Shown piece after piece: positions 1,102-25,658 of a stretch of 29,055 nt of DNA. The stretch comes from a virus: positions 1 through 29,055 of IMG/VR virus record IMGVR_UViG_3300044797_000164. One strand, 5' to 3'. Numbering within the stretch: position 1 is the stretch's first letter; each line of letters begins with the position of its first letter. The position numbers and the translations under genes were made by a program. The notes beneath the pieces are model-generated. The model made no database searches, was not told where the DNA came from, and worked only from the letters and a program-made list of their open reading frames with translations.

Positions 1102-1442
1102 GTTTCCTCCCATCCAAATCCGCTTCGATGTTTTTCATGCAATCTCAGCCAGCAATGAGCGTTAACCATTCGAGCCTTGGCATCCATCTGGCACCAGCAG
1201 CCCAGCTTGGGGTCGGCGTGGAATGGGGAGCCGCATGTTCTCAGTGGGCGGAAGAATATGGGGCATTCCCGGCATTTGGCCATCCGTGCCTGCATCTGGT
1301 CGGGGCGGGCCGCTTCCGCGTGCCACGAGTCCCACCATAGCCAGAAGAAGTCCTTGGCGCGCCAAAACACGTTTCCTGGCCCCCAGAGCGGGCTGTAAAG
1401 CGTTCCGGTGGCGACGGCAAGGATGAAGCGAAGGGTGGTCAT
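1098..1442 (-). CDS. Small Cys-rich, probably zinc-binding protein with hydrophobic N-terminus
   Basis: A 114-residue protein. The first ~30 residues are hydrophobic and Trp-rich (RFILAVATGTLYSPLWG, then FFWLWWDSW) and may associate with a membrane. The centre carries a Cys array: CRECPIF, TCG 10 residues later, then GCWC and HCW, six Cys in all. The spacing fits a structural zinc site. It overlaps both neighbours by 4 bases. GAGGAA lies upstream of the start. No function is known. The mix of hydrophobic N-terminus and zinc knuckle, inside an operon of glycan enzymes, would suit a membrane-proximal accessory factor, but that is inference. Confidence 0.7.
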   Translation of the reverse strand: MTTLRFILAVATGTLYSPLWGPGNVFWRAKDFFWLWWDSWHAEAARPDQMQARMAKCRECPIFFRPLRTCGSPFHADPKLGCWCQMDAKARMVNAHCWLRLHEKHRSGFGWEET

Positions 1443-2293
1443 CGCATTGATTCCTCGGACTGCCGGACATATTCAGCCATGCGGCCTTTGAACTGGCCCC
1501 ACATGTGTAGTGCCTGAAATCGCACATCGAAACGCGCGATTCCGAAAGCATAATGCTCCATACTCAGGCACCACGGCTGGCCCTTGTGAAAACGCATTAT
1601 CTTCCCTTCCGAATCAGCGTCAAAGCCGCTCCAAGACATGGCCATGTTGTGATCCCAGCAAGTAATGTTTCCGCCTGGCACGTGCATGAAGCGACACGGA
1701 TCACCAACTATCAAGTCCGGCCTGCTATTACGCCAGTGGCGGAATGCGCTCATGCAGCATTTCGACTCTGACCAGACATGGTTCTTTACCGTCACGGACT
1801 TGTCGTAAACCCCCAGCAACCACCCAGCAAACTCCATGAGCGGCACGCGATGTATAAACGTCGGTGCTTGGGCCGTGCCTTCCGGGTTGCAGGCCGCGTA
1901 ATCGAACTGCCGCCAATACTGGCATTCCTTGGTCACGTCACAGAAAATAAGCACGTCACAATCCACCACACAGACAAACTCCGCGCCGGTGTGATTCATC
2001 CACTCGGCAAGCACAAGCCAGTTCGAGAGGGACGCCCACAGAAACCACTCGTCTTTGATGCCTCGAAATGGCCAGACCTTGGCCAGCGCATCCTTGAGCC
2101 TCGAATACTTCTCCATCGGTTGATAATCGGCAATCCCCTTCCATTCATCCGGTTGTTTGTCGTCGGCCAGAAAGACCACCCGCCCGTCTGGATTCCATTT
2201 AAGCGCGCATCGCAGAGCTATGGGGATGCCCGGCCAGTTGCCGCTGACCGGCGAATGCGACCGGACAAACACGATTGGAATTGGTTCGCTCAC
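1439..2293 (-). CDS. GT-A-type glycosyltransferase-like protein
   Basis: The frame is open far upstream, to 2527, but that extension lies over the acyltransferase gene in another frame. The GTG at 2291-2293 (VSEPIPIVFVRSH) gives a GTGA overlap with the upstream stop, in line with the operon, so a 284-residue product is called. The N-terminus has a beta-strand start (IPIVFVRSHSP) and then VVFLADDKQP. Around residue 115 lies CVVDCDVLIFCD, an Asp-x-Asp element of the kind that binds metal and sugar nucleotide in GT-A enzymes. The C-terminal half has many Trp, Cys and His residues. A glycosyltransferase role is inferred from fold-like pattern and context. Donor and acceptor are unknown. Confidence 0.65.
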   Translation of the reverse strand: MSEPIPIVFVRSHSPVSGNWPGIPIALRCALKWNPDGRVVFLADDKQPDEWKGIADYQPMEKYSRLKDALAKVWPFRGIKDEWFLWASLSNWLVLAEWMNHTGAEFVCVVDCDVLIFCDVTKECQYWRQFDYAACNPEGTAQAPTFIHRVPLMEFAGWLLGVYDKSVTVKNHVWSESKCCMSAFRHWRNSRPDLIVGDPCRFMHVPGGNITCWDHNMAMSWSGFDADSEGKIMRFHKGQPWCLSMEHYAFGIARFDVRFQALHMWGQFKGRMAEYVRQSEESMR

Positions 2294-2871
2294 AGTTTTC
2301 CGATGCGTCTGGCCGGCACGCCCGCCCATATCTCGAACGCTGGCACGTTCTTGGTGACAACCGCCCCAGAGCCGATAAGCGCCCCCTTGCGGATGGTCAC
2401 GCCGGGCAGGATTGTGACCGCCGCGCCGATGCGCGCGCCATCTTCCACCACCGTCTTGAGCCATGCACTCTTTGGGCCTGGTGGAAACTTGTCGTTCGTG
2501 AAGGTGACGCGCGGGCCGATGAAGCAATGCTTGCCGATGGTCACGCCCTCGGGAATAAAAGAGAAAGCCCCAACGCGCGTGCCGTCACCGATTATGACAT
2601 TCGCGCCAATCTCGCAGAATGTGCCGACGTTGACCTTGCGCCCCAACTTTGCGGAGTCGTACACGTTTGAAGGCTCCCAGACCTTGCTGGTCTTGTGCCG
2701 GTTGGCAAGGCGGCTTATCATGCCGCTGAGTTCGCGCGCGCCACCGAAAGCGGCTGGCCTCAGATAAAACGGCACGGGTCCTGGCTGCTTACAAATGCAC
2801 TTCTTCCAGAAGTGGAGACAGACGGCGCATCTCTTGTTGCGCGGCGGGTTGGGTTCACGTTTCGTTTTCAT
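2290..2871 (-). CDS. Left-handed beta-helix (hexapeptide) acyltransferase, WbpD/WlbB-like
   Basis: A 193-residue protein with hexapeptide repeats from about residue 65 to the end (VNVGTFCEIGANVIIGDG, GVTIGKHCFIGP, VTILPGVTIRKGALIGSG). The stretch GPRVTFTNDKFPP matches the FTND-P signature of WbpD/WlbB-type sugar N-acyltransferases, which acetylate an amino sugar nucleotide for O-antigen-like glycans. An extra N-terminal 35 residues hold a small Cys cluster (CAVC, then CIC) that is not part of the usual family and may bind zinc. Start and stop overlap both neighbours by 4 bases. As the only obvious sugar-tailoring acyltransferase in the operon, it probably modifies a donor or product used by the adjacent glycosyltransferases. 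The substrate is not known. Confidence 0.85.
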   Translation of the reverse strand: MKTKREPNPPRNKRCAVCLHFWKKCICKQPGPVPFYLRPAAFGGARELSGMISRLANRHKTSKVWEPSNVYDSAKLGRKVNVGTFCEIGANVIIGDGTRVGAFSFIPEGVTIGKHCFIGPRVTFTNDKFPPGPKSAWLKTVVEDGARIGAAVTILPGVTIRKGALIGSGAVVTKNVPAFEIWAGVPARRIGKL

Positions 2872-3635
2872 GTCGTTTTAACAACTTGGTCCACCATCGC
2901 ACGGTCATCTGACCAAGGCAAAAAATCCTTTAGTCGCGCGGGCCACTTGGTATTGGCCTGCAACCGCCGCCATTGTTCAACCGCCCCGGTATAGCCGTAA
3001 TACTGCTCCTTGAAGGCAACCTGCTTTTCGGTCGCGTAGGCTTGGTGAAGAAAGAGTAATCCACGGTCTTTCGTGTTCCCAAAAGAAAACGGGTTAATGG
3101 GGCCAGCGCCAAACACGGGCGGCTCATGCGACTGAAAGCGCATCCCCGGCACATATCGCCACGCTCGCAGCCATTCGCCCGGATTGTTTCCGTACGCGCC
3201 GATTGTGACCGTTCGCAGATTGGGGCCAACGCGATAGTCGCATTGAAAATACGCGCAATCATGGTCGTTCTGAAACATGCTGGCGATGGTTCCGATCTGG
3301 CTTGCAGTCCAAAGCTCATCCGAATCCACCTGCATGAGCACGCCCGGACGGTCGCAGTATTGGAGCATCGCGTTAAACATTGCCGTCTTGCCGGGCCAGC
3401 GCGGACTTTGTAGAACCTTGACCCTGGGGTGCGATTTGAGGCCGTTCAGATACTCCGTGGTGCCATCGGTTGAAAGCCGGTGCGGAATGGGTTTGCACCA
3501 TCCGGTATCCAGCACGGGGTCGGCCACGCCTTCCGCGATAATCCAGCGCCAAGGGTCTGGCAGCTTCTCAAACTGAGCCAAGTGGTGAGCCAGCCACGGC
3601 ATTCCGTCCAAGACGATTGTGCAGAAGTAAATCAT
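2868..3635 (-). CDS. Glycosyltransferase, GT-A fold (GT2-like)
   Basis: A 255-residue protein beginning MIYFCTIVLDGMPWLAHHLAQF, the usual strand plus first helix of a GT2-like nucleotide-binding half. At about residue 103 VLMQVDSDELW supplies the D-x-D/E metal site, and FGNTKDRGLLFLHQAY lies in the acceptor half. The ATG has an excellent ribosome-binding site (AAAGGAGG about 5 bases upstream) and overlaps the upstream stop by 4 bases. The family of DSDE-containing enzymes starting with a 'CTIVLDGMPWL' type motif is widespread in phage and bacterial surface-glycan loci. Donor and acceptor are not determinable. Working with the adjacent acyltransferase is inferred from coupling. Confidence 0.8.
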   Translation of the reverse strand: MIYFCTIVLDGMPWLAHHLAQFEKLPDPWRWIIAEGVADPVLDTGWCKPIPHRLSTDGTTEYLNGLKSHPRVKVLQSPRWPGKTAMFNAMLQYCDRPGVLMQVDSDELWTASQIGTIASMFQNDHDCAYFQCDYRVGPNLRTVTIGAYGNNPGEWLRAWRYVPGMRFQSHEPPVFGAGPINPFSFGNTKDRGLLFLHQAYATEKQVAFKEQYYGYTGAVEQWRRLQANTKWPARLKDFLPWSDDRAMVDQVVKTT

Positions 3636-3832
3636 TGCGCCTCCTTTACCGGCCTGAACACGCCGATGAAAGGGGTGTCCTCGACCCGCAACCCAATCGT
3701 GGCCTCGACCGGGATAGGCTCGTCCAGCACGTCGGCCATGAACGTGTCGCCCTTTTCCATGACTTCATGCTGGCGGAGCAGCCGCTGACCTGCCGGCGCA
3801 ACGATGCCCTTGCCGTAAGCCAGACTGCTCAT
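3632..3832 (-). CDS. Small protein of unknown function
   Basis: A 66-residue protein with no recognised domain. It reads MSSLAYGKGIVAPAGQRLLR at the start and ends GVFRPVKEAQ. It overlaps both neighbours by 4 bases (ATGA), which is the main evidence that it is real. The downstream gene's ribosome-binding site lies within its last codons. It could be a small partner of the next upstream 85-residue protein. Nothing in the sequence indicates a function. Confidence 0.6.
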   Translation of the reverse strand: MSSLAYGKGIVAPAGQRLLRQHEVMEKGDTFMADVLDEPIPVEATIGLRVEDTPFIGVFRPVKEAQ

Positions 3833-4086
3833 AACGACTTGAGCTTGGCCAGCAACCGGCGCTTGGGGGTTGAATTGGGGGTCGCATACGGCAGATTCAG
3901 ACCGAGATCAACTTCGAGCGTCACCGGCGACACATTCTCGCCTTCCGGCAACGCCTGGCCAATGACAAGCTGCCACAGCGCGTTACGTTCCTCCGGTGCC
4001 CATCCAGCAAACAAGCCGGTGTTGCCTAGAGACCTGCGGCCTTCCGGCCCTTTCTCGACCCTGATGATAAGTTCCGTGGTGGTCAT
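3829..4086 (-). CDS. Small protein of unknown function
   Basis: An 85-residue protein starting MTTTELIIRVEKGPEGRR, with a likely beta-strand start, a Trp-containing central helix (WAPEERNALWQLVIGQALP) and a basic C-terminus (STPKRRLLAKLKSL). The ATG is preceded by AAAGGA and overlaps the upstream methyltransferase stop by 4 bases. No domain is recognised. The beginning ATGACCACC is shared with two other genes of the operon (at 1442 and 4751). Confidence 0.6.
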   Translation of the reverse strand: MTTTELIIRVEKGPEGRRSLGNTGLFAGWAPEERNALWQLVIGQALPEGENVSPVTLEVDLGLNLPYATPNSTPKRRLLAKLKSL

Positions 4087-4751
4087 GTTGTCCTTTCAAA
4101 AACGGCGTACCCGTTACGCAATGTGGGGTTGGTTTTGAGCAGCCGATAGTCCCGGTTATCCAGCAAATAATTGAACGAAGCCATGTTTTTAATGTCTACG
4201 ATGTCGTCCAAGGCGATGATTTTCGCTCCAAAAACAGCCTGCAACTCGGCAAAGCCGGTGAAGGCGCTGCCGTCAATCAGAACCATGTCGAACGCGTGGA
4301 TGTCGCGCGTGAACCGGATGGTCTCAATGACGTGCTGATTCTCGCAAGCCGCGCACGCATTCAAGTCCTGTTTCAGCCATTGCAGAACCTCGTCCAGCGG
4401 GTAGTTGTTCAGGTTGGTGTGTTTTTGTTCGTAAAACTCACGGACTTCGTACGGAGTCAGGTAGTCGCCTGATGCCACGCTTGAGCCGAAACATGGGAAA
4501 ATATTATGCCTGCCAGCATACCTCTGCGCCAGTTTCGCCATTCGCACTTCCGACATCTCAACGCAAAACAACACCTTTTCATGCGGCACCATGCCCATCC
4601 CTTTTACAATCGCCGCCGTTGACCCCTCTCCGGTGCTTGACCCGATTTCGAGAATGGTCTTGATGTCTGGGCGCGCGGCGCACTCGGTCAGGAGCGCCGC
4701 GAACTCGCAGCCATGAATCTCGGGCGGGATGATGGTTTCGAGGGTGGTCAT
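4083..4751 (-). CDS. SAM-dependent class I methyltransferase
   Basis: A 222-residue protein. Motif I for S-adenosylmethionine binding is clear at about residues 33-45 (TILEIGSSTGEGST). It is followed by VLFCVEMSEVRMAKL, the acidic end of strand 2, and by FDMVLIDGSAFTGFAEL at about 155-170, the motif of the Methyltransferase_24/CmcI type. AKIIALDDI follows as the next strand. These enzymes usually methylate small molecules or sugars on oxygen. In this operon, surrounded by glycosyltransferases, methylation of a glycan or an amino sugar is the simplest inference. It is coupled by ATGA overlaps to groES upstream and to a small unknown gene downstream. Confidence 0.8.
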   Translation of the reverse strand: MTTLETIIPPEIHGCEFAALLTECAARPDIKTILEIGSSTGEGSTAAIVKGMGMVPHEKVLFCVEMSEVRMAKLAQRYAGRHNIFPCFGSSVASGDYLTPYEVREFYEQKHTNLNNYPLDEVLQWLKQDLNACAACENQHVIETIRFTRDIHAFDMVLIDGSAFTGFAELQAVFGAKIIALDDIVDIKNMASFNYLLDNRDYRLLKTNPTLRNGYAVFERTT

Positions 4752-5095
4752 ATCTCGCGGCCAAGTATCTCCCCTTGACTGAAAATCTTGTAGGCGACAC
4801 CGTCAATAGTCAAGTCGGTGCCTCCGTGCGACATGAAGTGAACGCGGTCGCCTATTTTAGGAAACCTCCATCGGGCTTCGTCTATGTCTTTTACTGTCGT
4901 TTGATGGCCAAACGCCTTTCCAAGGCGGTTACAGGTCTCGCTGATACTTTCCACGTCAACCGCCACGACGACCCCGGTTGATTTGGGTTTGCGCGTGGTT
5001 TCCGGTGTCAGAATACCCCCGGACGTTGTTTCCTCCTGTTTATCCGGCAGCACGACGATGCGCGCCCCGAACGGCTGGAATTTGATTTTGGTCAT
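4748..5095 (-). CDS. groES: GroES-like co-chaperonin (Cpn10)
   Basis: A 115-residue protein starting at the ATG at 5093-5095, chosen because AAGAAAGGAAAC stands before it and it overlaps the upstream stop by 4 bases. The longer open frame to 5188 lacks these. FQPFGARIVVLPDKQEETTS and GGILTPETTRKPKSTGVVVA match the GroES core and mobile loop. IGDRVHFMSHGGTDLTIDG, then YKIFSQGEILGRE, match the C-terminal half. Usual GroES is about 97 residues, and here about 20 residues are inserted in the middle. The loop has ILT where GroES often has a tripeptide such as IVL. No groEL is present, so it would act with host GroEL. T4 gp31 is the known precedent, used for capsid folding. Confidence 0.88.
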   Translation of the reverse strand: MTKIKFQPFGARIVVLPDKQEETTSGGILTPETTRKPKSTGVVVAVDVESISETCNRLGKAFGHQTTVKDIDEARWRFPKIGDRVHFMSHGGTDLTIDGVAYKIFSQGEILGREI

Positions 5096-5772
5096 GTTTC
5101 CTTTCTTAATTCCCAACGACAATCCGTTGGGCCGTTGTGGTAGTCCATTGGAACGAACACCTTGCCGCGATTGAAACGGGCCGCGCACCCTGAGAACGAC
5201 GACGCGGGATAGGCAAACATCACCGGAGCCGTCGCCAGAATCAGAAAGTCCTCAAGAAAGTCCAGCTTCCAGGGATGCCCGCAATTTCGGTGCGGCGCGT
5301 CATCGGTCACAAGCTCAATGTCAGGATGCCCCGCCGCCTTGGCAGCCTCACGAATGCGCGCTTCCTGCACAATCGGCCAGCCGGTTTTGTTGGTTAGAAA
5401 ATCCCCGCGCCGCATGTGCGCCACGGCCTCGTATCGGTTCGACGGCTTGGCAAACTCAGGCCGGAACGGAAGCCAGCGGCGAAACTGCTCATCCGTGTAT
5501 TGCGGCACAAACGAATACTCCCATGTGTTCAACAGGGCGATGCCGTCCCAGAACTCTTGATCCGGCGCAAGCGGCCATGACAGGCGAAGGTTGGATTCGC
5601 CTTCAATCTTTGGGTCGTTCAGGTAAAACACCTGCTCTCCGGGCCAGTCGGCGGTCTGCAACACGGCGTCGTATTTCTCACAGAACCAGCGGCCCAGCGC
5701 GTACCATTGGAGCATGTTGCCCCATCGCCCGTGGCGTCCTCCGATTTGCGGCAGTTGCAAAATGCGCCTCAT
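5092..5772 (-). CDS. Fucosyltransferase-like (GT11-type) protein
   Basis: A 226-residue protein from the ATG at 5770-5772, which gives the operon's 4-base overlap. An upstream in-frame start would lie inside the neighbouring gene. The N-terminus GGRHGRWGNMLQWYALGRWF parallels the GT11 start, in which a Gly-rich turn is followed by GN-x-x-FQYA-x-A. VAHMRRGDFLTNKTGWP at about residue 133 matches the H-x-RRGD donor-binding motif of alpha-1,2-fucosyltransferases and relatives, and IELVTDDAP and VMFAYPASSFSGCAA match the later motifs. Length is a little below the usual 280-300. Fucose or a related GDP-sugar would be the donor by family. The acceptor is unknown. Confidence 0.75.
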   Translation of the reverse strand: MRRILQLPQIGGRHGRWGNMLQWYALGRWFCEKYDAVLQTADWPGEQVFYLNDPKIEGESNLRLSWPLAPDQEFWDGIALLNTWEYSFVPQYTDEQFRRWLPFRPEFAKPSNRYEAVAHMRRGDFLTNKTGWPIVQEARIREAAKAAGHPDIELVTDDAPHRNCGHPWKLDFLEDFLILATAPVMFAYPASSFSGCAARFNRGKVFVPMDYHNGPTDCRWELRKET

Positions 5773-8117
5773 ATCATGTTGCCCCAGAACTTTAAATGCG
5801 GCTGATGCACCGCCGCCCATTTCTTGAACTGTTCACCGTTGCGAACGTGTGACGGCGTGTTTTGAGGCAGGCTGGCCCATTGGCTGACATGATGCTGGTG
5901 ATACACGTAGCCGTTTGGCAACTCCGCGCAGACCATCACTTGGTCTATGTTCTGGCGGGTGGTCTTCTGGCCAACCTTGTGACGGACAAGCGCCGCCAGA
6001 TGCAGGTCGTAAGCAGGAGCGCCCAGGATGGCGTCCGGTATTTCGTCCCAATGCGCCAGCAGCCACACCTTGGTTGCGGCAAACAAATCCCTGCCCATGT
6101 GCCTTTCGCCTTTCGCTGCGATGTCCTCCGGGGCCATTGAGGGGCTTGGCGCGGTCTCATGCTTGAACTCCGTCCGCATGGCCGTGCAAGCGCCCCAGAT
6201 TGAGCAATGCTGACGCACGGCATCCGCTATCTCATTTTGGAGCAGAACATCATCATTCGTCCACATTACGATGTCTTCACCGTCGGCCTGACCCATTGCC
6301 ACAGCCAACACATCGCGCAGAAATGGCAGGTCCCGACTGTCGCCAATCTCCCGAGCGGTACGCGTGTAGCCCTTGCAATGGCAGGGAATGACGCCTTTTT
6401 CCCGGTACAGATAATCCCATGACAAACGGGCTATGGCCTTGCGGGTGGACTCAGCCATGCCGCGATCCGGGTGAATCTCGACCGCGTGGAAGATGCGGCG
6501 GATGGCGGGCGGTTCCGGCGGGCGATTGCGCCTCCCAAAGACGCCTTGCAGATTCTTCCACTGATTGATTTGAGCGTGAACATCGTCAATGGAAGCCAGC
6601 GCCTTGCTGTAGTCCAGTTGCAGTATCGCATTGCATTGCGGCGATGTTCGCATCCAGTGTCCGAAACACTCGCAATCGTTGACGATTGCCACAACGGGTA
6701 TCATGTAATCCGCCGCCAGATGCAGGGTATAAGTATCCGAGGAAATCAGGAGCTTTGCGTTTTCAAGGAACATCCCCATGTCATAGATGCGCTCCGCCTT
6801 TATGGCCGACAGGTCAACAATCTGGAAGTGTGCCGACCATCGTTCCATGATGGCGTCTCGCATCGTTACCCCGTCCTTGAACGGGGACGTGTTGCCCCCG
6901 GTCAGGTGCAGCAGCAGGAGCGGCTTCATCAATGGCGTGCAGGACAACAACGCCTGCTCGCGTTTGCCGTCAGTCTGGTCAAACACCTTGTCCACGCAAA
7001 GCCGGTTGTCAAACGCCCACTCAAATCCGCACACCCGCCATTGCTCGACGTTGTAGCACTTGCTTGACCTTTCCGTCGTGAAGTTCTCGCCGTAAACCTG
7101 CGCGTTCAACACGTACTCCGCCCGTTGCCCGGCAATGGCCAGCGCATCGTTTATCTTAACGTCGTCAATATCCAGCAGCAACGGCTCGATATACGAGCAG
7201 CCGTCCAGCACCATCCCGCCGTATTTCTGCGTGGAAACGAACAGGGGTTTTCGCCCGGTCTGCCGGAAGATGTGGAAGGCAATCGGCAGGACGTTGATGA
7301 TGTCGCCCATGTGCCCGAGGCTGACGATGGCAATGCGACCTCGGCGCGCATTGGTCAACCGCGTCACCCCGCCCGTAAACTGCGCCGCCAGCCGGTCGTA
7401 ATCCATGTCCGCCTTGGGGGTTAGCTTCACGTCGCCGGGAGGCTCAAGGAAGGCGTTAAGCCGGATGTCAGCCGCCTCTCCGGCGCGTGCCAGTCCGTCC
7501 TTCTGGCCGGGCTTATCCTCGCCCAGCCCGCTCAGGTGGTAAACAGACTCGCCCTGGCCCCAGCGATAGACAAAAGACGCCTCCTGATTGGACAACGGCA
7601 CCTTAATACCGTCAAACTTCTGGGTCACGCGCCCTTGAAAGTTCCGGTCTTCCCCGGTGTTCATATTGGCGAACATGCCAGCCGCCAGCCACGCCTTTTT
7701 GGTGTAAGCAAAAGTGTTGCAGGTTCCGGCAACGATGCCCTTGATGCGGGTGCCCTCCATGTAAAACATCTTGTCCAGCCACACCCAATCGTGTTTGTCC
7801 GGGTTGAAATGCCGCGCGAAATTGGACAAATGGCCACGGCAATAAGCGTCGTCGTCGTCCCAAACAACCAGCAGCCCGTCTTTCGCGCAGGCGTTGGCCG
7901 CGTTCCGGGTCTCGCCAATGGTGGACGGGCGGATGGGGGCATTTATGACTTTGACCAGCGGATGATCAAAGTCCAGCTTTTGGCGGAGACAGGTATTGTA
8001 AACAATCATCTCGCGCGGACCGTCGTAATCTTGGTCCAGAAAATTTGCAATCGCGTTCTCCAAGTGGCGAACGCGCGCAAAGGTCAGGCAGATGGCTGTA
8101 ATCTGTGGCTGGCTCAT
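5769..8117 (-). CDS. Three-domain glycosyltransferase fusion (GT2-like, GT9-like, third GT-A-like)
   Basis: A 782-residue protein from the ATG at 8115-8117. A longer frame to 8261 is the shadow of the next gene. Residues ~1-255 are GT2-like: QITAICLTFARVRHLENAI, then VVWDDDDAY as the metal site. Residues ~257-525 are like the GT9 ADP-heptose transferase family: RIAIVSLGHMGDIINVLPIA is the GD-containing start, and ISSDTYTLHLAADYMIPVVA matches the S-x-D-x-x-x-HLAA motif. Residues ~535-782 hold a third unit with IVMWTNDDVLLQNEI as a possible D-D site. Such fusions act sequentially in glycan assembly. The third domain is the least certain. Both ends overlap neighbours by 4 bases. Confidence 0.8.
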   Translation of the reverse strand: MSQPQITAICLTFARVRHLENAIANFLDQDYDGPREMIVYNTCLRQKLDFDHPLVKVINAPIRPSTIGETRNAANACAKDGLLVVWDDDDAYCRGHLSNFARHFNPDKHDWVWLDKMFYMEGTRIKGIVAGTCNTFAYTKKAWLAAGMFANMNTGEDRNFQGRVTQKFDGIKVPLSNQEASFVYRWGQGESVYHLSGLGEDKPGQKDGLARAGEAADIRLNAFLEPPGDVKLTPKADMDYDRLAAQFTGGVTRLTNARRGRIAIVSLGHMGDIINVLPIAFHIFRQTGRKPLFVSTQKYGGMVLDGCSYIEPLLLDIDDVKINDALAIAGQRAEYVLNAQVYGENFTTERSSKCYNVEQWRVCGFEWAFDNRLCVDKVFDQTDGKREQALLSCTPLMKPLLLLHLTGGNTSPFKDGVTMRDAIMERWSAHFQIVDLSAIKAERIYDMGMFLENAKLLISSDTYTLHLAADYMIPVVAIVNDCECFGHWMRTSPQCNAILQLDYSKALASIDDVHAQINQWKNLQGVFGRRNRPPEPPAIRRIFHAVEIHPDRGMAESTRKAIARLSWDYLYREKGVIPCHCKGYTRTAREIGDSRDLPFLRDVLAVAMGQADGEDIVMWTNDDVLLQNEIADAVRQHCSIWGACTAMRTEFKHETAPSPSMAPEDIAAKGERHMGRDLFAATKVWLLAHWDEIPDAILGAPAYDLHLAALVRHKVGQKTTRQNIDQVMVCAELPNGYVYHQHHVSQWASLPQNTPSHVRNGEQFKKWAAVHQPHLKFWGNMI

Positions 8118-8296
8118 CTTTTGTCGGTAAATCTCGGCTCGTTCCACAGTTTGATCGCGTCTTCCATGTTCTCGGCTTGCTTGATGATGCACCCTGTCGG
8201 GCAGGCGATGGACACCAGTTTGGTCTCCACAATGCGCGGCAGCCTGCCGCAGCAGGGACATGTTCTGATGCCGGCCATTTTGTCTTTACGTTTCAA
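8114..8296 (-). CDS. Lar-like zinc ribbon protein (restriction-alleviation family)
   Basis: A short protein with RTCPCCGRLPRIVE near the N-terminus, then VSIACPTGC, and a C-terminal MEDAIKLWN. The order CP-x-CG, second C-x3-C and a final A-I-x-x-W-N is that of the Lar/restriction-alleviation family. Some members weaken host type I restriction, but most are uncharacterised. The start is uncertain. TTG at 8294-8296 (60 residues) gives the TTGA overlap that fits all other junctions of this operon, while ATG at 8276-8278 (54 residues) is the conventional choice. Neither has a good ribosome-binding site. Confidence 0.7.
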   Translation of the reverse strand: MKRKDKMAGIRTCPCCGRLPRIVETKLVSIACPTGCIIKQAENMEDAIKLWNEPRFTDKR

Positions 8297-9597
8297 GGTA
8301 TTTGGTCAGGAATCGGGCTGTTGCCAAAATGAATGCCGTTCTTCGCGCTTTCGCGCAGCACTTCGAGCAGGGCGGGAATAAGGTCTTCCTTGAACTCCAC
8401 GCGGTCTCCTGTCACCTGCTTGACGTGTTCCATCCCCTGTTCCATAGCCTCTTGGATGGTGTCCCCGAACCCGGTCACGTAACCGAGATGCGCGGATTCA
8501 TCCTCCCCCGGCACAATCCAGTCCAGACCGTGACGGCGGCAGGTCTCGTAGAGCTTGACGTAATCCTCGATGGCCAGCGGATACTTGACGCCCTGCCAAT
8601 GTTTTTGCGCCCAATCGGACGAGAGCGCCACTTGGAATCCGTATTTCGCCTTGAGCTTCAATTCGACCAAGCGGCCTTGCGCGGCCTCCCACAAAACTTC
8701 AGCCAGGTTCAGAATCATGTTTTGAAGCAGTTCCCCCGGAGGCGACGGCGCGCGGCATGTGCTGTCAATCAAATACATCTTCCCGTCCTCGCCAATCCGA
8801 ATCTCTGACGAATACCAGCCGCGATATTTCCAGGCGGCAAAAGCCGGGGCCAGCTTGTCGTTGACCACCCGCACTTCATCCGGCAAATCCTCGTAAGGCA
8901 CGGCGGCAATGACATATCCGCAATTCTTGATCTCGACGCCGGCAAATCCGATGTCGGGAAACCGACCGTCCACATTCAGCCCGTCGTAGCCGATTTCCCG
9001 CAAAGTCTTGATTTTTTTCTCAACCACAAACTCCTGCTCGTCGGCCAGCGGGCCAAGCTCGACCTGCCACGCATCCAGCCGCGTCTTGACCTCAGGGTAG
9101 CTGACAGCCTCAAACGTCTCGCCCAAGCCGCGATACTTGGACACCTTCACGATTTCCTCCGGGTGCCCCTGAATGTATTTTCGCAGCGCATCCAGACCTG
9201 TAATCAACTCCGTGGGCTGCATCGGCAAACCAAGCCTCCCTTGCAACTGGCGGGCGTCCCATCGGCAAAGCTCCAAGTCCTCGCCGTCGCCAGCGCCGAA
9301 CACGTTAAACCCCTCGTCGCGCAAGTCCTCCTGCAAGTCAGCCATGCCGACGCAGAGGAAGACGAACAGAACATCCTGCTTGCGCTCGCGAAACTCGGTG
9401 CGGACGGCGTGCAGCTTTTCGGTGCGCTCAAGACCGGGAAAGCCGGTGCCGATGGCGGCAAGCTGCTTCTGCAACACCGTCGTCATTATGTTGCAGAAGT
9501 AAATAACGCGTCCAACCTGGCCGACGAGGCTGCGCGCAAAAGACACGCCTATGCCGTTGTCAACAATGACGAAAGTTTTGGATGACAGGGGGTTCAT
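8293..9597 (-). CDS. ATP-grasp enzyme, PurD-like (phosphoribosylamine-glycine ligase family)
   Basis: A 434-residue protein from the ATG at 9595-9597. The N-terminal part (VGMADLQEDLRDEGFNVFGA) resembles the start of PurD, where the ligase discards the low-numbered lobe for the ATP-grasp lobe. EEIVKVSKYRGLGETFEAVS and DEQEFVVEKKI resemble the ATP-grasp lysine and hinge strands. RGWYSSEIRIGEDGKMYLID ends with Asp-Thr rather than the usual Glu-x-Asn, so the metal site differs from true PurD. It may ligate another amine and carboxylate, for instance in glycan tailoring. It is the second gene of the operon, just after the helix-turn-helix gene. AAGGA precedes the ATG. Confidence 0.7.
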   Translation of the reverse strand: MNPLSSKTFVIVDNGIGVSFARSLVGQVGRVIYFCNIMTTVLQKQLAAIGTGFPGLERTEKLHAVRTEFRERKQDVLFVFLCVGMADLQEDLRDEGFNVFGAGDGEDLELCRWDARQLQGRLGLPMQPTELITGLDALRKYIQGHPEEIVKVSKYRGLGETFEAVSYPEVKTRLDAWQVELGPLADEQEFVVEKKIKTLREIGYDGLNVDGRFPDIGFAGVEIKNCGYVIAAVPYEDLPDEVRVVNDKLAPAFAAWKYRGWYSSEIRIGEDGKMYLIDSTCRAPSPPGELLQNMILNLAEVLWEAAQGRLVELKLKAKYGFQVALSSDWAQKHWQGVKYPLAIEDYVKLYETCRRHGLDWIVPGEDESAHLGYVTGFGDTIQEAMEQGMEHVKQVTGDRVEFKEDLIPALLEVLRESAKNGIHFGNSPIPDQIP

Positions 9598-9882: not shown

Positions 9883-12800
9883 TTAGCTGATGGTCAACGT
9901 CCAGCCTGAGATCATCGGGTAAGGGGGCTGCCCGTTGGGAGACCCGTTCTGGACGCACCACAGGCTCCATGCGCCAATCGGATTTGTGCCGATAAGGCCA
10001 TTGAAACTTGCCGGAAATGAAATCGCCGGGCACGGTGCCAGCGGCGTCGGAACACTGCCAGACTCGGTGGGCTTGAATGTGCCGGAGACCACGTTGCCTG
10101 AGAACGGAAGGGATGTGCTGCTATTGGAGTCCAGTATCAGGTTGGCGCTGGCAAAAGCGTGATTGATGTCGCCAACGCCCGACAGCAGGCAGACCCCCAG
10201 GCCGGACGGCGACACAAGGAACAACGAAACCGTTGAGGCGGGTCCGCCCAGCATGTTGTTCAATCCGACCTGAATCCTGCTGATACTCGTAATCGCCCCG
10301 CTGTAAACGCTGACGCTCGGATACGGGGTTGCCGCCGCGCCGTTGCGAATCGTGATGAGCGATGAATTATTGGACTGATTGCAGTTGATGCCCGTATTTG
10401 CGTTGGCCGTGGCCAATGCAAGCGCGTTGGTGTCCGCATCCCCTTGTGAGATGTAGGAAACGTACGTCGCGCTCGCCGTGTACCCCAGACCGTTGTTGCC
10501 GTCATACCGCCCCACCGGGCAATACGCGGTGAAACTCTTGGTGGACGTGTAGGTTGCGATGCACCCGTATTGAGCTAGAACTTGCTGCGCGAGCGAAAGC
10601 GCCGCCGCCGTGGCCTTGTTGTTGGCGTCAACCTGGCTGATGAGACTAGTCGCCGTTGCGCTCTGGGTCACACCGTTGCAACCGGGGCACGGCGCAAAGT
10701 ATTGAAACAGTTGAACGCCGACGGTCTGGCCGGACTGGCCCGTTGGCCTGATGGCCAGTTGGTAGTACAGATAGTTGCCGGGGTTGACCACCGGGAAGAA
10801 TGACGGGTCGCCGGTTTGCATCGTGACGGCGTTGAATGTGCCGATGCCGGTGAAGTTCATCCCGTCGTTTGAGCCGAGCATTTCAATATCCACCGGGATG
10901 CCGCCAATGGTTGCGTCTGGGGTCACGGCGAAGGTGCCAAACAACGCGGCAGCCGCCAACTGGCCGGTCAAGGTCACGTAACTCGAACCCGATTGCGTCC
11001 CGCGCCATGCCGGGCCAGCGCCGAACGCGCGATAAGCCTCATAGCCGGTCAACTCCGACGAAGGCGTGAGATTGAAGGCGCTGTTGGTGTCAGCCGACAG
11101 TTGAGGGATGGCGCTGGTCGGGTTCATCTGAACCGAGTTCGCCGGACAAGTCGCCGTTGCGCTTAACGTGGCAGAGTATTGCGTCGGAGGCACGTAGTCC
11201 GATTCGATGTCCGGCAGCGGGTTGGGATCGGGTATTTCAGGGCCGGGCGGCGTGCTGAGGCATCCGTAACCGTAACAGTTGTAGCCGTAATACCAGAAAT
11301 AGCCGTAGCCAGCAGCCGTGCTATTGGACACAGGAGGCGTCGGGCTGGCTGAAAGGATGGCCTGAAAATCCGCGTGACTTTGCTGGTCTGTGTACGTGGT
11401 GACGGATGGCGAAAGCGTGGCCATCAGATAATAGCGAGCGGGACCGGCTCCGACGGTTTCCTGCCGCCACAGTTGGATGTTGGTCACGGACGGGTCTTGG
11501 CCGGCTGGAAATCCGATGTTCACTGAATGGATGTTTGCGCCAACGGTATGTGACGTGGCTGGTGACACTGCGGTGTGCCCGTTGGCTGTCAAATAGGAAA
11601 TCTCATACGAATAAACATCGCCACCGGACATGTCACCGGGAGACGTATTGGTGTTGTTCGAGCTTGGGGCAGGCGCGCTGCCAAGCAGTGAGAACTGAGA
11701 ATTGCTTAACGTGTCAGTGTACGTTGTGGCGCTGACCGGAAGCGTGGCGAGAAGGAATCTCGTCGGGGGAATGAATGCGAGAAATCTCCAAATCTGAATG
11801 CCCGTTACCTGCGGGGGGACACCGCCGGGCAGCGTAATAAGAATAGCACTTGCTCCCGCCCCCACTGTATGCGCCGCGCCCGATGAAAGCCCTGTGGTGG
11901 TGCTGCCGACTTGGTACGAAACGTAATACGTGTTTTGATCTCCGGGCGTCATGTTGCCGGCGGGAATAGTTCCAACCAACTGCGCGCTATAGATCGCACT
12001 CGACTGTGCGCCGCCGAGCCAGTTCCATCGGTAATAAAGATATGCTGTGCTGTTGGAAAAGCTCGTTGTCTGAGACGAGGTTGCCCCGGCCCCGGATGCG
12101 AGCGTTGTCCACGTAGAGCCATCATTTGACCCTTGCAGGTTCCATGCTGAGAAATCACCTACAATTATGGTTTGAGTGGCGACTAAAGCCGTCGGAAACT
12201 GATACTGCAACCACGACGCCCCGTGATACGAAAAACTATCAGACCAAAAATCGCCTCCGCCCAATCCTGAAAAGCCAAACCAAGGCGGGTTGCTGTAGCT
12301 GCTTGCTGATGCCACTCCACTCGGGGTGGTATCGCTGGTCATCACTGGAATAAGGTTCCCTGTCGTATTGGGCGCATCCGCCAGCGTCGGCGCATTCGGA
12401 TTCGATATGCCTCCAAAACCGTTGTCATTGACCGTGACAGCCAGCGGATTCGCAATCGCATTGCTGACCACACCCGTCCCCGTCCTGACCGCGCCGCAGG
12501 CGGGGGGAACGTATTGCAGGTTTTCCCCGTCAAAATTGTCCGAGAACATCAGCGTGGCATCGGTTACATCGGTCAGCGCGATGTCGTCCAGCAATGGGCA
12601 GGCTTCAAACGGGCCGAATGAACTGGCCGATGTCGCCGGGTTTGTGAACACAATCGGCGCTGTGTAGCTGGTCTGCGGCGTGAAATTGAAGCTGTATTGC
12701 TGAAACGCCTGGGTGAAGCTCGTAATCGCCACTGTCTGCGAGAATGCCCCCAGCGTGACGGTGACATTTTGAGTCCCGGTGTTCTGCAACTGGTTGCCTG

Positions 12801-14445
12801 CCAGCCAAAAGCTGATTTCGTAAGTCTTGCCAGCCGTGAAATTGAAGCTCGTTTTGGATGTGAGCGTCGAGTTTGCCCCGATGTCCACGTAAAGGCCGTT
12901 GCCCGGCAGTGGGTCAATCAAACCAGGCCCGTCCAGCGTGAATGAGCCGGAAGCGTTCCAGTTTGCGAACGTCGTGTAATTGGCGGATGGTTCGTTGACG
13001 AAATTGTTTCCCGGTGGCGCGCAATTCCCGGCGCAAAGGTATCCCTTCAATCCATACACCTGCTGAATCGTTGTTGTCGCATTCGACGGGTAGCAGTTGA
13101 CAAAGAAGCCGCCGGTCGCCAGGGCGCTGAGCAGGTTGAAGCCAAGATTCGTGGTCGTGGACGCCCGCACCCCGACGCACATGATGATCCCGCCTGAGTT
13201 ATGGAAGGCTGTCGCAATGGGCACCGGGGCATTGGCAGGCGTCGTGTCCTTGTCTTCACCGTCCGAAATCAGGACGATGACCTTCACCGCCGCGCTCGAT
13301 GCCGCCAGAATGTTGACTGCCGACTGCAAGGCAAGACCAATGCCCGTCAGATTGGCTGTGGTGACAATGTTTCCGGCCTGATTGGCGACCGTGGAAGCCG
13401 CCAGTGTAAGCCCGGAATCTGTCGTCGGCGCGCTGTCGAATTCAATCAGCGAAACCGTGTCGCCTTTGTTGGTGTTCGTCTGGTTGGCGTAATTCAACGC
13501 CAGCGCATCGGCAAATGCCTGCTTGGTGGAAAACCCGCCGCCAAAGGCCAGCGACATCGAATGCGACTTGTCCACCACGAGCACCGTGGCGGTCGTGACC
13601 CCACCGCAACACCCGGATGGCCCGCCGATGCCGTAAAGCTGAAACGTGTTGACGGCGCTGGTCTGGTTTCCTGACTGCGCGAACGTCACCCGGTAATACA
13701 GGTAGGCATTGGCGTTGTTGAAGGTGACGGGCGTAAGCGACCCCACCCCGGCGGCAATCGTGGACAGATTCGTAAAATTGACGCCGTCATGCGACCCGGC
13801 CAGTGTTGCCGCCTCAAAATCACCGTAAAGCACCCATTGAGTCGCAACGGCGGGGGCTTCAAATTGGTACTGCAAATAAGGCGGGTTGACATCCCCCGCC
13901 CAAATGCCGCTGCCCCAATAAAGGTTATTGGCCCCGTTGCCGCCGTTCATCGCCCACCACGGCTGCGTGTACACCCCCGGCAATATCTGGGTATTGTTGC
14001 TGGAAGCAACCCCGCTCGGGAATGTGTTGGAAGTCATCACCGGAATCAACGGCCCAAACGAGCCGCCCGGAGATGACCCCGCCAACACGGTGAGATTGGC
14101 CGTGGCCGACAGGTTGTTGGCCGTGGCGCTGACAGTCGCCTCCCCCGCTGACAACCCCGTGGCGCTGCCGCTGGACGCGCCAATGACCGCAACCGACATA
14201 TTAGACACCGACCAAGAGACCCCCGATGTCAGCAGCGTCTCAACGCCGTTGGTCACTGAATATGCCTGAAATTGAACTGAACCCAACGGGCACGTCAGCA
14301 GGACGCCTGGCTTGATTCTTAGGAATGGGGTATTGCCGCAGGTGTCCGGGTTGAGCGCGGCATACGCCGGGTCGGTGCAGTTCTGGTCAACCGGAGCCTG
14401 GGTGGTCGGTATGCAGGGCGAATTGATTATGTTTGGAAAGTTCAC
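9883..14445 (-). CDS. Giant adhesin-like virion protein (Ig-like, discoidin-like, VWA, FN3-like, P-domain)
   Basis: A 1520-residue mosaic starting at a GTG (14443-14445) with GGAG 9 bases upstream, inside the end of the adaptor gene. In order: Ig-like domain (~44-120); discoidin-like domain (~132-272); von Willebrand A domain (~283-465) with the MIDAS motif DKSHS in VLVVDKSHSM and ISDGEDKD; a carbohydrate-binding-like beta sandwich (~478-640); a second discoidin-like domain (~696-828) repeating LIPVMTS and PSGVAS from the first; two tandem FN3-like units (~832-925, ~935-1035); a third discoidin-like unit (~1110-1255); two Ser-Gln-x-x-Ala/Asp repeats (DUF5977-like); and a proprotein-convertase P-like domain (~1360-1520, VSLFLVSPSGLGVCLLSG, GAWSLWC). 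No signal peptide is seen. A receptor-binding or tail-associated role is inferred. Confidence 0.8.
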   Translation of the reverse strand: MNFPNIINSPCIPTTQAPVDQNCTDPAYAALNPDTCGNTPFLRIKPGVLLTCPLGSVQFQAYSVTNGVETLLTSGVSWSVSNMSVAVIGASSGSATGLSAGEATVSATANNLSATANLTVLAGSSPGGSFGPLIPVMTSNTFPSGVASSNNTQILPGVYTQPWWAMNGGNGANNLYWGSGIWAGDVNPPYLQYQFEAPAVATQWVLYGDFEAATLAGSHDGVNFTNLSTIAAGVGSLTPVTFNNANAYLYYRVTFAQSGNQTSAVNTFQLYGIGGPSGCCGGVTTATVLVVDKSHSMSLAFGGGFSTKQAFADALALNYANQTNTNKGDTVSLIEFDSAPTTDSGLTLAASTVANQAGNIVTTANLTGIGLALQSAVNILAASSAAVKVIVLISDGEDKDTTPANAPVPIATAFHNSGGIIMCVGVRASTTTNLGFNLLSALATGGFFVNCYPSNATTTIQQVYGLKGYLCAGNCAPPGNNFVNEPSANYTTFANWNASGSFTLDGPGLIDPLPGNGLYVDIGANSTLTSKTSFNFTAGKTYEISFWLAGNQLQNTGTQNVTVTLGAFSQTVAITSFTQAFQQYSFNFTPQTSYTAPIVFTNPATSASSFGPFEACPLLDDIALTDVTDATLMFSDNFDGENLQYVPPACGAVRTGTGVVSNAIANPLAVTVNDNGFGGISNPNAPTLADAPNTTGNLIPVMTSDTTPSGVASASSYSNPPWFGFSGLGGGDFWSDSFSYHGASWLQYQFPTALVATQTIIVGDFSAWNLQGSNDGSTWTTLASGAGATSSQTTSFSNSTAYLYYRWNWLGGAQSSAIYSAQLVGTIPAGNMTPGDQNTYYVSYQVGSTTTGLSSGAAHTVGAGASAILITLPGGVPPQVTGIQIWRFLAFIPPTRFLLATLPVSATTYTDTLSNSQFSLLGSAPAPSSNNTNTSPGDMSGGDVYSYEISYLTANGHTAVSPATSHTVGANIHSVNIGFPAGQDPSVTNIQLWRQETVGAGPARYYLMATLSPSVTTYTDQQSHADFQAILSASPTPPVSNSTAAGYGYFWYYGYNCYGYGCLSTPPGPEIPDPNPLPDIESDYVPPTQYSATLSATATCPANSVQMNPTSAIPQLSADTNSAFNLTPSSELTGYEAYRAFGAGPAWRGTQSGSSYVTLTGQLAAAALFGTFAVTPDATIGGIPVDIEMLGSNDGMNFTGIGTFNAVTMQTGDPSFFPVVNPGNYLYYQLAIRPTGQSGQTVGVQLFQYFAPCPGCNGVTQSATATSLISQVDANNKATAAALSLAQQVLAQYGCIATYTSTKSFTAYCPVGRYDGNNGLGYTASATYVSYISQGDADTNALALATANANTGINCNQSNNSSLITIRNGAAATPYPSVSVYSGAITSISRIQVGLNNMLGGPASTVSLFLVSPSGLGVCLLSGVGDINHAFASANLILDSNSSTSLPFSGNVVSGTFKPTESGSVPTPLAPCPAISFPASFNGLIGTNPIGAWSLWCVQNGSPNGQPPYPMISGWTLTIS

Positions 14446-16858: not shown

Positions 16859-18634
16859 TTATGCCGGTTCCGTGGTCGTGGTCGTCCCAGCCCCGACCGT
16901 GCTCGGATACACGATGTTGCTCGGGTTGGTGTAGGCGGGCTGGCCGCTGGCAAAGTTTTCCAGCCACAGATTGCCCGCCGGGCATTCCACGATCATCGTT
17001 CCCGTGACCGACATCAAGGTGGTCTCCTGCGTGTTGACTTCCATCACACAGGCGTAGCTCGAATTGAGGGCCGCAAGATTCTTCAACTCGCCGGTGTTCC
17101 AGACCTTGCGGTTGCTGGCTGCGATGCCGGGGTAGATGCCGGTGAAATCCAGCACGAGCAGCAGACGGCCCGCGTTGGCCTGGCCGGCAAAGCTGTTCGC
17201 CGTCAAATAATCGTCGAAGTAATAGTGCGTGATGACGTTGATTCGCAACGCCGGATACATGAGGTTGTAGCTCCGGTAATTGAAACCAAACTGAGCCTTC
17301 TGGATGTCCTGCTCCTTGTTGAAGGAGGCTTGGGGCATCTCATTCACGCCGACCGTCCAGCGCGCGTAGTTGCCGGTCTCGTTGGCGTAATACAGGATCA
17401 TCGCCTGGTTGATGGCGTGCGCGGTTTGATTGTCGGTGAAGATGTCGAACTGCTCCACATACTTGCCGGTCGCACCCTCGCGGATACGCTTCATGTTGTA
17501 GAGTTCGTTGAACAGCGCGATGAGGTTCAACTGCGCGCCCTGCAAATCCATGACGCGGTTACACTCAACCAACTGCTCGTAAATCCCCACCATGTTGGCG
17601 CGATAACCAACGCAGGTCCCACCGTCAATGCCCAACCCGTAAGCCGAGCCGTCATACGCCGTAATCATCGGCAACTGGTTGTAATTGGCGAGCGTCTGAT
17701 TGGCGCTGATCTTGGAGCCGCGCAACATGGTCTCAACCTGGCGCTTCTGCCAGTCGGCCCCAAGCTGGCGGTTCTTCTCGATCTCGGTCAAATCGCCAAA
17801 CTCACGATACAGCGGGTTATCCTCAAGCAGCCACTTGCGCCACCGCTCATACATCGTGCCACGGCAGAGCGTGGTGCGCTGGGTCTCAATCCAGAACGGA
17901 ACATTTTTCCAGTTCAGGTAGGCCGGGGGTTCCGCGCAGAAGTTTTCAAAGTCCGTGATATTGGCCGTGCCACGGGTGAGCAGCCCGGTCACAGGCGATT
18001 GCAAGCGCGAGCCGGACAGGTAAGACCCGGCGTTTTGCGGGGTCAAAACAAGCTGGACGCCGTTGGCCACAGCCGGAGAGGGGATGGAAACCAAAATCTG
18101 CCACGCGGTCATGGTCTTGGTGTTCGCCGCCGTCAGACCGGCGATATACACGCGCTGGCCGACCGGGAAGCTGCGAACGTCGCCGGGGATGTTGGTCGTC
18201 GAAGAAACGTCCACCTGCCAGTTGGAGCCGGTTGCCACGCCGTTTTGAACGTACCAATAGCCGTTGTTGATGGCCGAGTATTGGCGGGCCATCGCAAAAG
18301 GCTTGACCATCCACTGTCCGGAATCCACGGATTCGGTCTTGACCTTCTTGTTGACGTTGACCCGGTTGGCCATGAAAAAGTCGTACAACCCGTTTTGAAC
18401 GGTATCGCACATCTTTATCTCCATGTCGTGCTTGATGAGCGCGCCCATGATGAGATAGTCGCCGGTGCGGGTGTAGTTCGTCAGTTCCGACTGAATCATC
18501 GCCTTGGCGTTGCAGGACGTGACCGACCCGCATTCCTTGATGTTCGTGGTCAGGTTCGGCGCGCATTTGGCGAATGCGTTGGGCGAAAGCAGTAGATTGT
18601 TTGTGTCGGTATTTTGCGGTGTCGTTTCAGCCAT
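16859..18634 (-). CDS. Putative major capsid protein
   Basis: A 591-residue protein from the ATG at 18632-18634 (MAETTPQNTDTNNLL). An in-frame GTG at 18655 lies within a hairpin and is not preferred. The protein is soluble, without signal or membrane segments. It has an early Cys-containing segment (IKECGSVTSCNAK) and ends in a Gly/Thr-rich tail (VGAGTTTTTEPA). Identification rests on place and size: it follows portal and scaffold candidates and has its own leader hairpin and downstream terminator, as expected for the most abundant protein. HK97-fold capsids are usually 300-450 residues, so 591 implies insertions. No motif is diagnostic, hence moderate confidence. Confidence 0.65.
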   Translation of the reverse strand: MAETTPQNTDTNNLLLSPNAFAKCAPNLTTNIKECGSVTSCNAKAMIQSELTNYTRTGDYLIMGALIKHDMEIKMCDTVQNGLYDFFMANRVNVNKKVKTESVDSGQWMVKPFAMARQYSAINNGYWYVQNGVATGSNWQVDVSSTTNIPGDVRSFPVGQRVYIAGLTAANTKTMTAWQILVSIPSPAVANGVQLVLTPQNAGSYLSGSRLQSPVTGLLTRGTANITDFENFCAEPPAYLNWKNVPFWIETQRTTLCRGTMYERWRKWLLEDNPLYREFGDLTEIEKNRQLGADWQKRQVETMLRGSKISANQTLANYNQLPMITAYDGSAYGLGIDGGTCVGYRANMVGIYEQLVECNRVMDLQGAQLNLIALFNELYNMKRIREGATGKYVEQFDIFTDNQTAHAINQAMILYYANETGNYARWTVGVNEMPQASFNKEQDIQKAQFGFNYRSYNLMYPALRINVITHYYFDDYLTANSFAGQANAGRLLLVLDFTGIYPGIAASNRKVWNTGELKNLAALNSSYACVMEVNTQETTLMSVTGTMIVECPAGNLWLENFASGQPAYTNPSNIVYPSTVGAGTTTTTEPA

Positions 18635-24628: not shown

Positions 24629-24706
24629 TGGTAGCGGGGGGTGGATTTGAACCAACGCTTACCAGTTTATGGGACTGGCGGCTTAACCAGGCTTGCCCAC
24701 CCCGCA
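24629..24706 (-). tRNA. tRNA with CAU anticodon (Met or Ile2), CCA encoded
   Basis: On the minus strand a full cloverleaf folds: acceptor 24700-24706 with 24633-24639; D arm with GGC/GCC stem and the conserved A14, G15, G18, G19 and A21; anticodon stem CCAGT/ACTGG; loop CCCATAA; a 5-base variable loop; T arm with loop TTCAAAT; A73 and genomic CCA (24629-24631). Anticodon CAU reads Met, or Ile2 if the C is modified to lysidine. Oddities are C33 instead of U33, an unpaired 1:72 (T-T) and a T-C mismatch at 50:64. It lies between two plus-strand genes and is antisense to their transcription. Its structure is otherwise complete. Confidence 0.85.
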
Positions 24707-24731: not shown

Positions 24732-25658
24732 ATGTCTCGACTGTCAATCGTCATTACCTGTCACGGGGAGTACGAAGAACTTCAAAAAACCATCGCCTCA
24801 ATTCGCGCCACGGCTGGCCTCAAGCCCGAGGTTGTTGTTGTTGACGACGCCAGCCAGGTTCCGATTTCCGTTAACGATAAAGATTGCCTTTTAATACGAA
24901 ACGAGACCCGCGCCGGAGTTGGGCCAGCCCGCCATATTGGAGCAACCCACGCAACCGGGGACTTCTTGCTGCTGATTGATTGCCACATGCGATTTGAGCC
25001 GAACTGGCACGACAAGGTTCTGGATCACATCAAAGGCCGGACAACCACTCTATTCTGCGGTTCCTGCATCGCCTTGTCTCCGGAGCAGATGGACATTAAC
25101 CGCGCGCACGAGGTCTATCACGGCGCAACCATCAACTTCCACGGCCCCGACCGGCATCGCCCGGAGAAGACCCAGGTGTTTGAGGGCGTCTGGGCCAAGG
25201 ACCAGCCGGGCAAGGACGATTATCCGCTGGCCTGCGTCATGGGTGCCTGCTACGCGATGGCCACGGATTGGTTCTTCCATATCGGCGGTTTGAGGATGTT
25301 GCGGCAGTGGGGCGGGGACGAGGCGCTGATTTCAATAAAAACATGGCTGGCCGGCGGCGATGTTCGCATGATGAAAAAGCTGCGAGTGGGGCACATGTTC
25401 CGCGAGAAAAGCCATTATACCAGCCAGCAATGGTGCCTGATTTACAACGCGATGGTCACGGCGCTGACCTGCCTGCCGCTGGACAAGGCGTACCGCCTGA
25501 ACCGTTTGCACATGGGAAGCACGGAGGTAATGCTGGCGCGGCAGCGCGTGGACGAGGACTCAGGCATCATCTGGGCCGAGCGCCATCATCTCCAAAGCAT
25601 CTTCACCCGGACTTTTGACTGGTATCTGGAATACTTTGGGCTTAATTTCCCGCAATGA
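24732..25658 (+). CDS. GT27-like (polypeptide GalNAc-transferase-type) glycosyltransferase
   Basis: A 308-residue protein from the ATG at 24732 (MSRLSIVITCHGEYEELQK). The alternative start at 24693 would lie in the tRNA. VVVDDAS (~36-41) and LLLIDCHMRFEPNW (~79-92) give a GT-A fold with a D-x-H metal site, the form used by GalNAc-transferases, not the usual D-x-D. LRQWGGDEALISIKTWLAGG and RVGHMFR (~219-224) match the Gal/GalNAc-T motif of GT27, where WGGE, W-x-CGG and VGHVFR occur in the same order. Family GT27 enzymes glycosylate Ser/Thr on proteins. Here the C-terminal lectin domain is absent. It is followed by an ATGA-coupled small gene and then the tail propeller. Confidence 0.8.
   Translation: MSRLSIVITCHGEYEELQKTIASIRATAGLKPEVVVVDDASQVPISVNDKDCLLIRNETRAGVGPARHIGATHATGDFLLLIDCHMRFEPNWHDKVLDHIKGRTTTLFCGSCIALSPEQMDINRAHEVYHGATINFHGPDRHRPEKTQVFEGVWAKDQPGKDDYPLACVMGACYAMATDWFFHIGGLRMLRQWGGDEALISIKTWLAGGDVRMMKKLRVGHMFREKSHYTSQQWCLIYNAMVTALTCLPLDKAYRLNRLHMGSTEVMLARQRVDEDSGIIWAERHHLQSIFTRTFDWYLEYFGLNFPQ

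Follow-up and report, generated by a model that had tools for sequence, protein, structure and literature searches.

A conserved glycosyltransferase cassette among the structural genes of a tailed-phage lineage, predicted to glycosylate the phage particle

The virus record IMGVR_UViG_3300044797_000164 from IMG/VR (positions 1 to 29,055; this whole 29 kb stretch is referred to as the window) carries an operon of glycosyltransferase (GT) and tailoring genes together with TerL, a portal gene, a scaffold-like gene and a gene resembling those of major capsid proteins (MCPs). The structural genes were assigned by position, conservation and PHROG/Pfam matches. An initial annotation proposed the region at 1439-9597 as a candidate for an entire, coupled glycan-modification pathway acting either on the host envelope or on the virion. 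The genes and their coupling were confirmed: of the ten junctions from a 38-aa open reading frame (ORF; orf38, 8114-8230) down to the gene at 1098-1442, nine are formed by exact ATGA overlaps, and at the tenth the start, as inferred, lies a few bases away from the stop of the gene before. Some of the family labels proved to be weak.

To place this operon in context, relatives were gathered by an MCP search (12 relatives) and by an MCP alignment (63 loci). The identity of the window MCP to its relatives amounts to 46-58%. Two of them, G002 and G025, have direct repeats at their termini (123 and 127 bases, respectively) and were taken as complete genomes of 72.5 and 78.1 kb; other long relatives span 65-76 kb. 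Their genes were called by a simple custom hexamer model, leaving small ORFs in these genomes uncertain. Searching 50,697 phage records by tblastn for cultured relatives gave no match for TerL, portal, MCP, the ATP-grasp enzyme, the fusion GT or GT2b (the latter three described below), and a search of bacterial genomes for an MCP relative returned none. An alignment of the fusion GT matched only two contigs of metagenome-assembled genomes (MAGs; Planctomycetota and Pedosphaera) among bacterial genomes, with GT9-like or GT9-like/third-domain genes, which are too few for naming a host.

The exact gene list is unique to the window. Conserved among the relatives are the position of a slot, bordered by a VWA tail gene and the virion structural gene P3287 (phrog_3287), and a core of three GTs, so that the gene set sought in other genomes recurs as slot and core and not as the full list. 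The core comprises a GT2+GT9-like+GT-A-like fusion, GT2a (2868-3635) and GT2b (24732-25658, plus strand). In the window, the near border is a VWA/Ig/F5-8-like tail protein (9883-14445, minus strand) with a Ser+Thr content of 22%, while P3287 (25909-27726, plus strand), the far border in the relatives, neighbors GT2b. Usually, the three-domain fusion comes first in the slot, and its end reads GT2a, further genes, GT2b and P3287. The minimal version was found in the complete genome G025, consisting of VWA, fusion, a Methyltransf_24-like protein, GT2a, a small ORF, GT2b and P3287. In the window and G002, the GT2b-P3287 pair stays together across TerL, on its other side. The slot contents between these fixed elements are swapped: 69 variable slot proteins of the relatives include the Pfam families Methyltransf_24 (10), Methyltransf_11 (5), TylF (4) and PLOD-type GT (3), in addition to GT34, DUF5672, TOD1/MUCI70, FkbM and NAD-dependent epimerases. 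Together with the conserved core, these families support a multi-enzyme glycan-building cassette, while the claim of an entire pathway goes beyond what they establish. The reported lack of nucleotide-sugar genes applies to the window, whereas relatives hold an NAD-dependent epimerase in the slot. Distant relatives devoid of the core carry a different slot set, being GT4-like, GT2-like and FkbM-like by eye.

Within the operon, all genes of which are given here on the minus strand, the three-domain GT fusion (5769-8117), which most relatives carry as the first core gene in the slot, was correctly recognized from the outset. Its domain 1 belongs to GT2 and has the GT-A fold. Domain 2 resembles half of a GT-B enzyme and shows weak heptosyltransferase/GT9 similarity, with matches to the GT9 heptosyltransferase profile staying below the cut-off. 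An AlphaFold model of the whole fusion was good in domain 1 only; domain 3, modelled separately, gave a confident GT-A-like structure (pLDDT 91.6). The top structure matches of the latter are GT-A glycosyltransferases, all of them weak (E 0.005 in the PDB, 0.001 in viral models) and without a close family, and according to this model domain 3 may represent a new GT-A-type family. The fusion is modular: G012 and G007 encode it as two separate genes, domain 3 is exchanged for a DUF5672 domain in G010 and absent in G027, and domain 2 is missing in G024. GT9-like and third-domain proteins were also observed as adjacent genes with no GT2 domain in front, namely in the other phages G017 (L156) and G019 (L157) and in L169, a Pedosphaera MAG contig (Verrucomicrobia).

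The second core gene of the operon, GT2a (2868-3635), upholds the GT2-like assignment (Pfam GT2, 1e-6) and is present in 10 genomes including the window (alignment A7); a PDB search returned no significant match. The gene at 2290-2871 encodes a hexapeptide (left-handed beta-helix) acyltransferase of the sugar O/N-acyltransferase type (Pfam Hexapep, 6e-21) with a homologue in G025. Originally labelled WbpD-like, it has its top NCBIfam match in a NeuD-type model, under the cut-off of that model. A second glycan-like locus lies away from the slot in G025 (35358-38010, L145), with a GT2-like gene, a GT4-like gene (by eye) and a homologue of the window acyltransferase. The GT-A-like protein with a DxD motif (1439-2284; inferred GTG start right behind the stop of the acyltransferase gene) has no Pfam match; as a variable slot member, it is related to same-slot proteins of G003 and G013 (E ~1e-9 to 1e-8). 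The GT11-like (HxRRGD) glycosyltransferase (5092-5772) and the probable class I S-adenosylmethionine (SAM) methyltransferase (4083-4751) have the weakest family assignments in the operon. The former gave no match to Pfam Glyco_transf_11 and is linked to GT11 indirectly through G017_011 (28% identity, E 2e-15), itself matching Pfam GT11 at 1e-4, below the cut-off. The latter was recognized by motifs by eye, with one weak NCBIfam match (4e-4) and none to a profile of the relatives' methyltransferases. Two small coupled ORFs of 66 and 85 aa (3632-4086) have no relatives found.

Two further operon members were identified correctly, but their proposed part in the pathway was not upheld. The ATP-grasp enzyme (8293-9597) is PurD-like (profile E 4e-9), although it scores far under the NCBIfam purD cut-off and is therefore not PurD itself. 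It lies in-slot in the window, yet outside the slot in G012, G013 and G022, and was rejected as a core part for want of a consistent link to the slot. The GroES co-chaperonin (4748-5095; PF00166, above the gathering score) is co-transcribed, but stands outside the conserved cassette: none of 18 relatives tested encodes it. Both seem to be carried along by the operon. In several members of the ATP-grasp family (window, G002, G012, G022), a small protein with an HE..E motif (cluster c21) accompanies the gene. The last operon gene (1098-1442) encodes a Cys-rich 114-aa protein kept in G002, G014 and G022; a similar ORF adjoins TerL in L073.

GT2b lies outside the coordinates of the initial annotation and was missed there. 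Its profile (alignment A6) retrieved polypeptide N-acetylgalactosamine (GalNAc)-transferases as 16 out of the 16 best PDB matches (E 7e-27 to 2e-18), with the next-best other GT at 4e-8; an O-glycosyltransferase of Toxoplasma (8uhv) appeared in this search. The window protein alone gave the same ranking, with GalNAc-transferases at 1.8e-16. Neither GT2a nor the fusion matched GalNAc-transferases, which shows that the GT2b match is specific. Known phage GT families match GT2b weakly, GtrB-like ones at 1e-5 to 1e-3. The enzyme was matched strongly in 12 relatives, and the metal ligands D-x-H (D83, H85) as well as the GHxFR His (H221) are invariant in the 13 aligned sequences. Catalytic-domain homology and these residues are shared with the polypeptide GalNAc-transferases of CAZy GT27; at the position aligned with the Gal/GalNAc-transferase motif WGGEN, GT2b reads W/F-G-x-D/E-E. 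On this basis, GT2b is a GalNAc-transferase homologue over its catalytic GT-A domain, with a predicted activity as initiator on protein Ser/Thr. Animal enzymes of this kind initiate mucin-type sugar chains.

A candidate acceptor is found in the MCP (16859-18634, minus strand), assigned by position and conservation, which carries a C-terminal Thr tract ...YPSTVGAGTTTTTEPA and ends ...GAGTTTTTEPA (tail peptide SNIVYPSTVGAGTTTTTEPA). In cassette-bearing relatives, the tract is located at the MCP end or just before an added DUF5977-like domain. Defined as at least five Thr within eight residues, it was detected in 18/19 MCPs of the clade in comparison to 16/854 other proteins; the exception, G027, has a shorter version (WTTTTSQ). 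All 16 contigs with a cassette gene possess the tract, and none of the seven cassette-free contigs of at least 48 kb does (Fisher 4e-6, kinship ignored). When the tail was left out of the MCP tree, a single change sufficed for the tract and a single one for the cassette, both on the same branch (SH-aLRT 99). An extension of the MCP past the tract by the DUF5977-like domain was observed in G001, G002, G004, G009 and G027, and this domain also occurs in neighboring tail-side proteins.

Gene order, coupling, core conservation, fold and family matches and the co-occurrence of Thr tail and cassette were observed directly. On this basis, we consider it probable that the cassette glycosylates the phage's own particle, by an O-glycosylation that starts on the MCP Thr tail and is then lengthened and varied by the cassette enzymes. 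The acceptor, the order in which sugars are added, the timing and the benefit are what we infer, as follows. During late gene expression, GT2b would take the initial sugar from a nucleotide-sugar of the host and attach it to Thr residues in the flexible, Thr-rich tail at the MCP C-terminus; other virion proteins rich in Ser/Thr would perhaps be acceptors too. This stub would be extended to a short oligosaccharide by the three-domain fusion and GT2a, which strain-specific enzymes (here the GT11-like, GT-A-like, methyltransferase and acyltransferase proteins) would then cap or decorate. Since the capping enzymes vary from one relative to the next, the surface glycan would differ with each phage, plausibly serving as shield or adhesin. 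More tentatively, the lineage as a whole could bear a mucin-like, strain-variable O-glycan coat on its capsid Thr tail, with a GalNAc-transferase homologue starting it and a modular multi-domain GT, subject to loss, splitting or exchange of domains between phages, extending it.

Of the two targets originally proposed, the virion is favored over the host envelope because of the late structural-gene setting, the missing integrase, the lack of polytopic slot proteins, the GalNAc-transferase-like GT2b and the MCP Thr tail tracking the cassette. Cassette phages yielded no tyrosine integrase except for a marginal match inside a giant G025 protein, and neither a serine recombinase/resolvase nor a thymidylate synthase was found in seven long genomes. 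Among 151 slot proteins, there was no polytopic membrane protein beyond two marginal hydrophobic matches. Serotype conversion of lysogens, glucosylation of DNA and an envelope pathway of the lipid-linked type are disfavored by these negative results. A remodelling of lipopolysaccharide or capsule during infection, leading to superinfection exclusion or receptor masking, would fit the weak GtrB-like matches of GT2b and the weakly heptosyltransferase-like fusion domain 2; it is nevertheless unlikely, as the slot is placed among structural genes and lacks a protein of flippase or polymerase type, GT2b ranks GalNAc-transferases first, and near-complete genomes without integrase or resolvase render a lasting lysogen conversion improbable. 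Tyrosine integrases are present in four of the seven long cassette-free relatives (G033, G037, G038, G042); a change in life style may perhaps coincide with the gain of the cassette.

Glycosylation might likewise concern the virion with another particle protein as acceptor, i.e., P3287, the VWA tail protein or DUF5977 proteins, leaving the MCP tract as a linker. The vicinity of GT2b to P3287, the Ser/Thr-rich VWA protein and the linking position of the tract ahead of the DUF5977-like extension in five genomes speak for it. We regard this, too, as improbable, given that the tract is nearly confined to the MCP and is also kept at its very end, where there is nothing to link. That the GTs act on bases of the phage DNA, in the manner of T4-like or hypermodified phages, appears remote: DNA-acting phage GTs are well known and restriction avoidance is a common benefit, but none of seven long genomes yielded a thymidylate-synthase-like base hydroxymethylase, the cassette is located away from replication genes, and sugar-tailoring enzymes are atypical of DNA glucosylation. 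Very unlikely as well is a loose collection of passenger genes without joint function. The unique gene set of the window and the ATP-grasp, GroES and small-ORF genes not tied to the slot would agree with such a collection, in contrast to the constancy of core and slot, the consistent functional classes of the swapped genes and the tight coupling of the operon.

Several points weigh against O-glycosylation of the MCP tail. The ricin-type lectin domain of GalNAc-transferases has no Pfam match in GT2b (308 aa), for which reason the enzyme is called GT27-like and not a GT27 member. A GalNAc-transferase-like sequence leaves the acceptor unfixed, as related GT-A enzymes such as MftF, itself a weak match, or chondroitin synthases use non-protein acceptors. 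In cassette-free relatives, which have no Thr tract, the slot is occupied by other GTs, and L121 has the tract, yet the 20 kb visible of it contain no cassette gene. The Thr tract could merely be a flexible linker. Moreover, two single changes on the same branch reduce the association to a single event in evolution, so that independent tests cannot be seen in the Fisher values; the strength of the association lies in the retention of both traits through divergence to ~46% MCP identity and not in independent replicates.

Virion glycosylation as such is already known. In Che8 and further mycobacteriophages (Freeman et al. 2023, as cited in PMC12619734 and PMC11256854), which likewise encode GTs, the C-termini of capsid and tail-tube proteins are reported to carry glycans with a role as shield. 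Che8 differs from the window in an MCP without Thr tract and in having no three-domain fusion annotated. Its GTs were rejected as orthologues, with gp108-110 not being detectably orthologous to GT2b, nor gp110 to GT2a. F1 phages related to Che8, e.g., Maravista, encode an integrase (PMC11256854). Corndog (cluster O), which has no integrase, shares with the window a methyltransferase and GTs amid structural genes: an O-methyltransferase and several GTs, for which its authors suggested a methyl and glycan modification of the capsid (PMC4351075). Compared by description, it differs in using a portal-to-protease slot and a smaller set. In the chlorovirus PBCV-1, the protein A111/114R combines three GT domains and is linked to MCP glycosylation (PMC7826918); the glycans concerned are N-glycans in a eukaryotic virus, and its likeness to the fusion consists in the three GT domains and not in demonstrated homology. 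Serotype-converting gtr clusters belong to temperate phages and comprise the membrane flippase GtrA and a membrane Gtr, whereas the near-complete relatives have no integrase or resolvase and the window slot no polytopic membrane protein. Among the papers searched, none was found on a phage GalNAc-transferase-like system, though one may have been described elsewhere. What is new here is the predicted initiator resembling GalNAc-transferases, together with the MCP bearing a Thr tail, the modularity of the fusion and the slot with its swapped contents.

Phage virion glycosylation has been demonstrated in few systems, and this lineage offers a concrete predicted acceptor, the MCP Thr tail, together with a predicted initiating enzyme. 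The variation of the cassette resembles antigenic variation of particles. If true, the proposed O-glycosylation would connect the biology of phages with the GalNAc-transferases of mucin-type glycosylation and make small soluble enzymes available for glycosylating proteins in bacteria; it would further matter for the way in which particles resist recognition or stick to mucus or cells.

Apart from the cassette, a tRNA-Met gene (24629-24706, minus strand) sits between TerL and GT2b. The contig end cuts a gene at 28817-29053 (minus strand), of which the end with a DHHA1-like GGGGH motif is visible (nanoRNase-like by eye). Beyond P3287, very long genes of ~1,800-4,900 codons follow in G003, G006, G012, G014, G022, G025 and G045.

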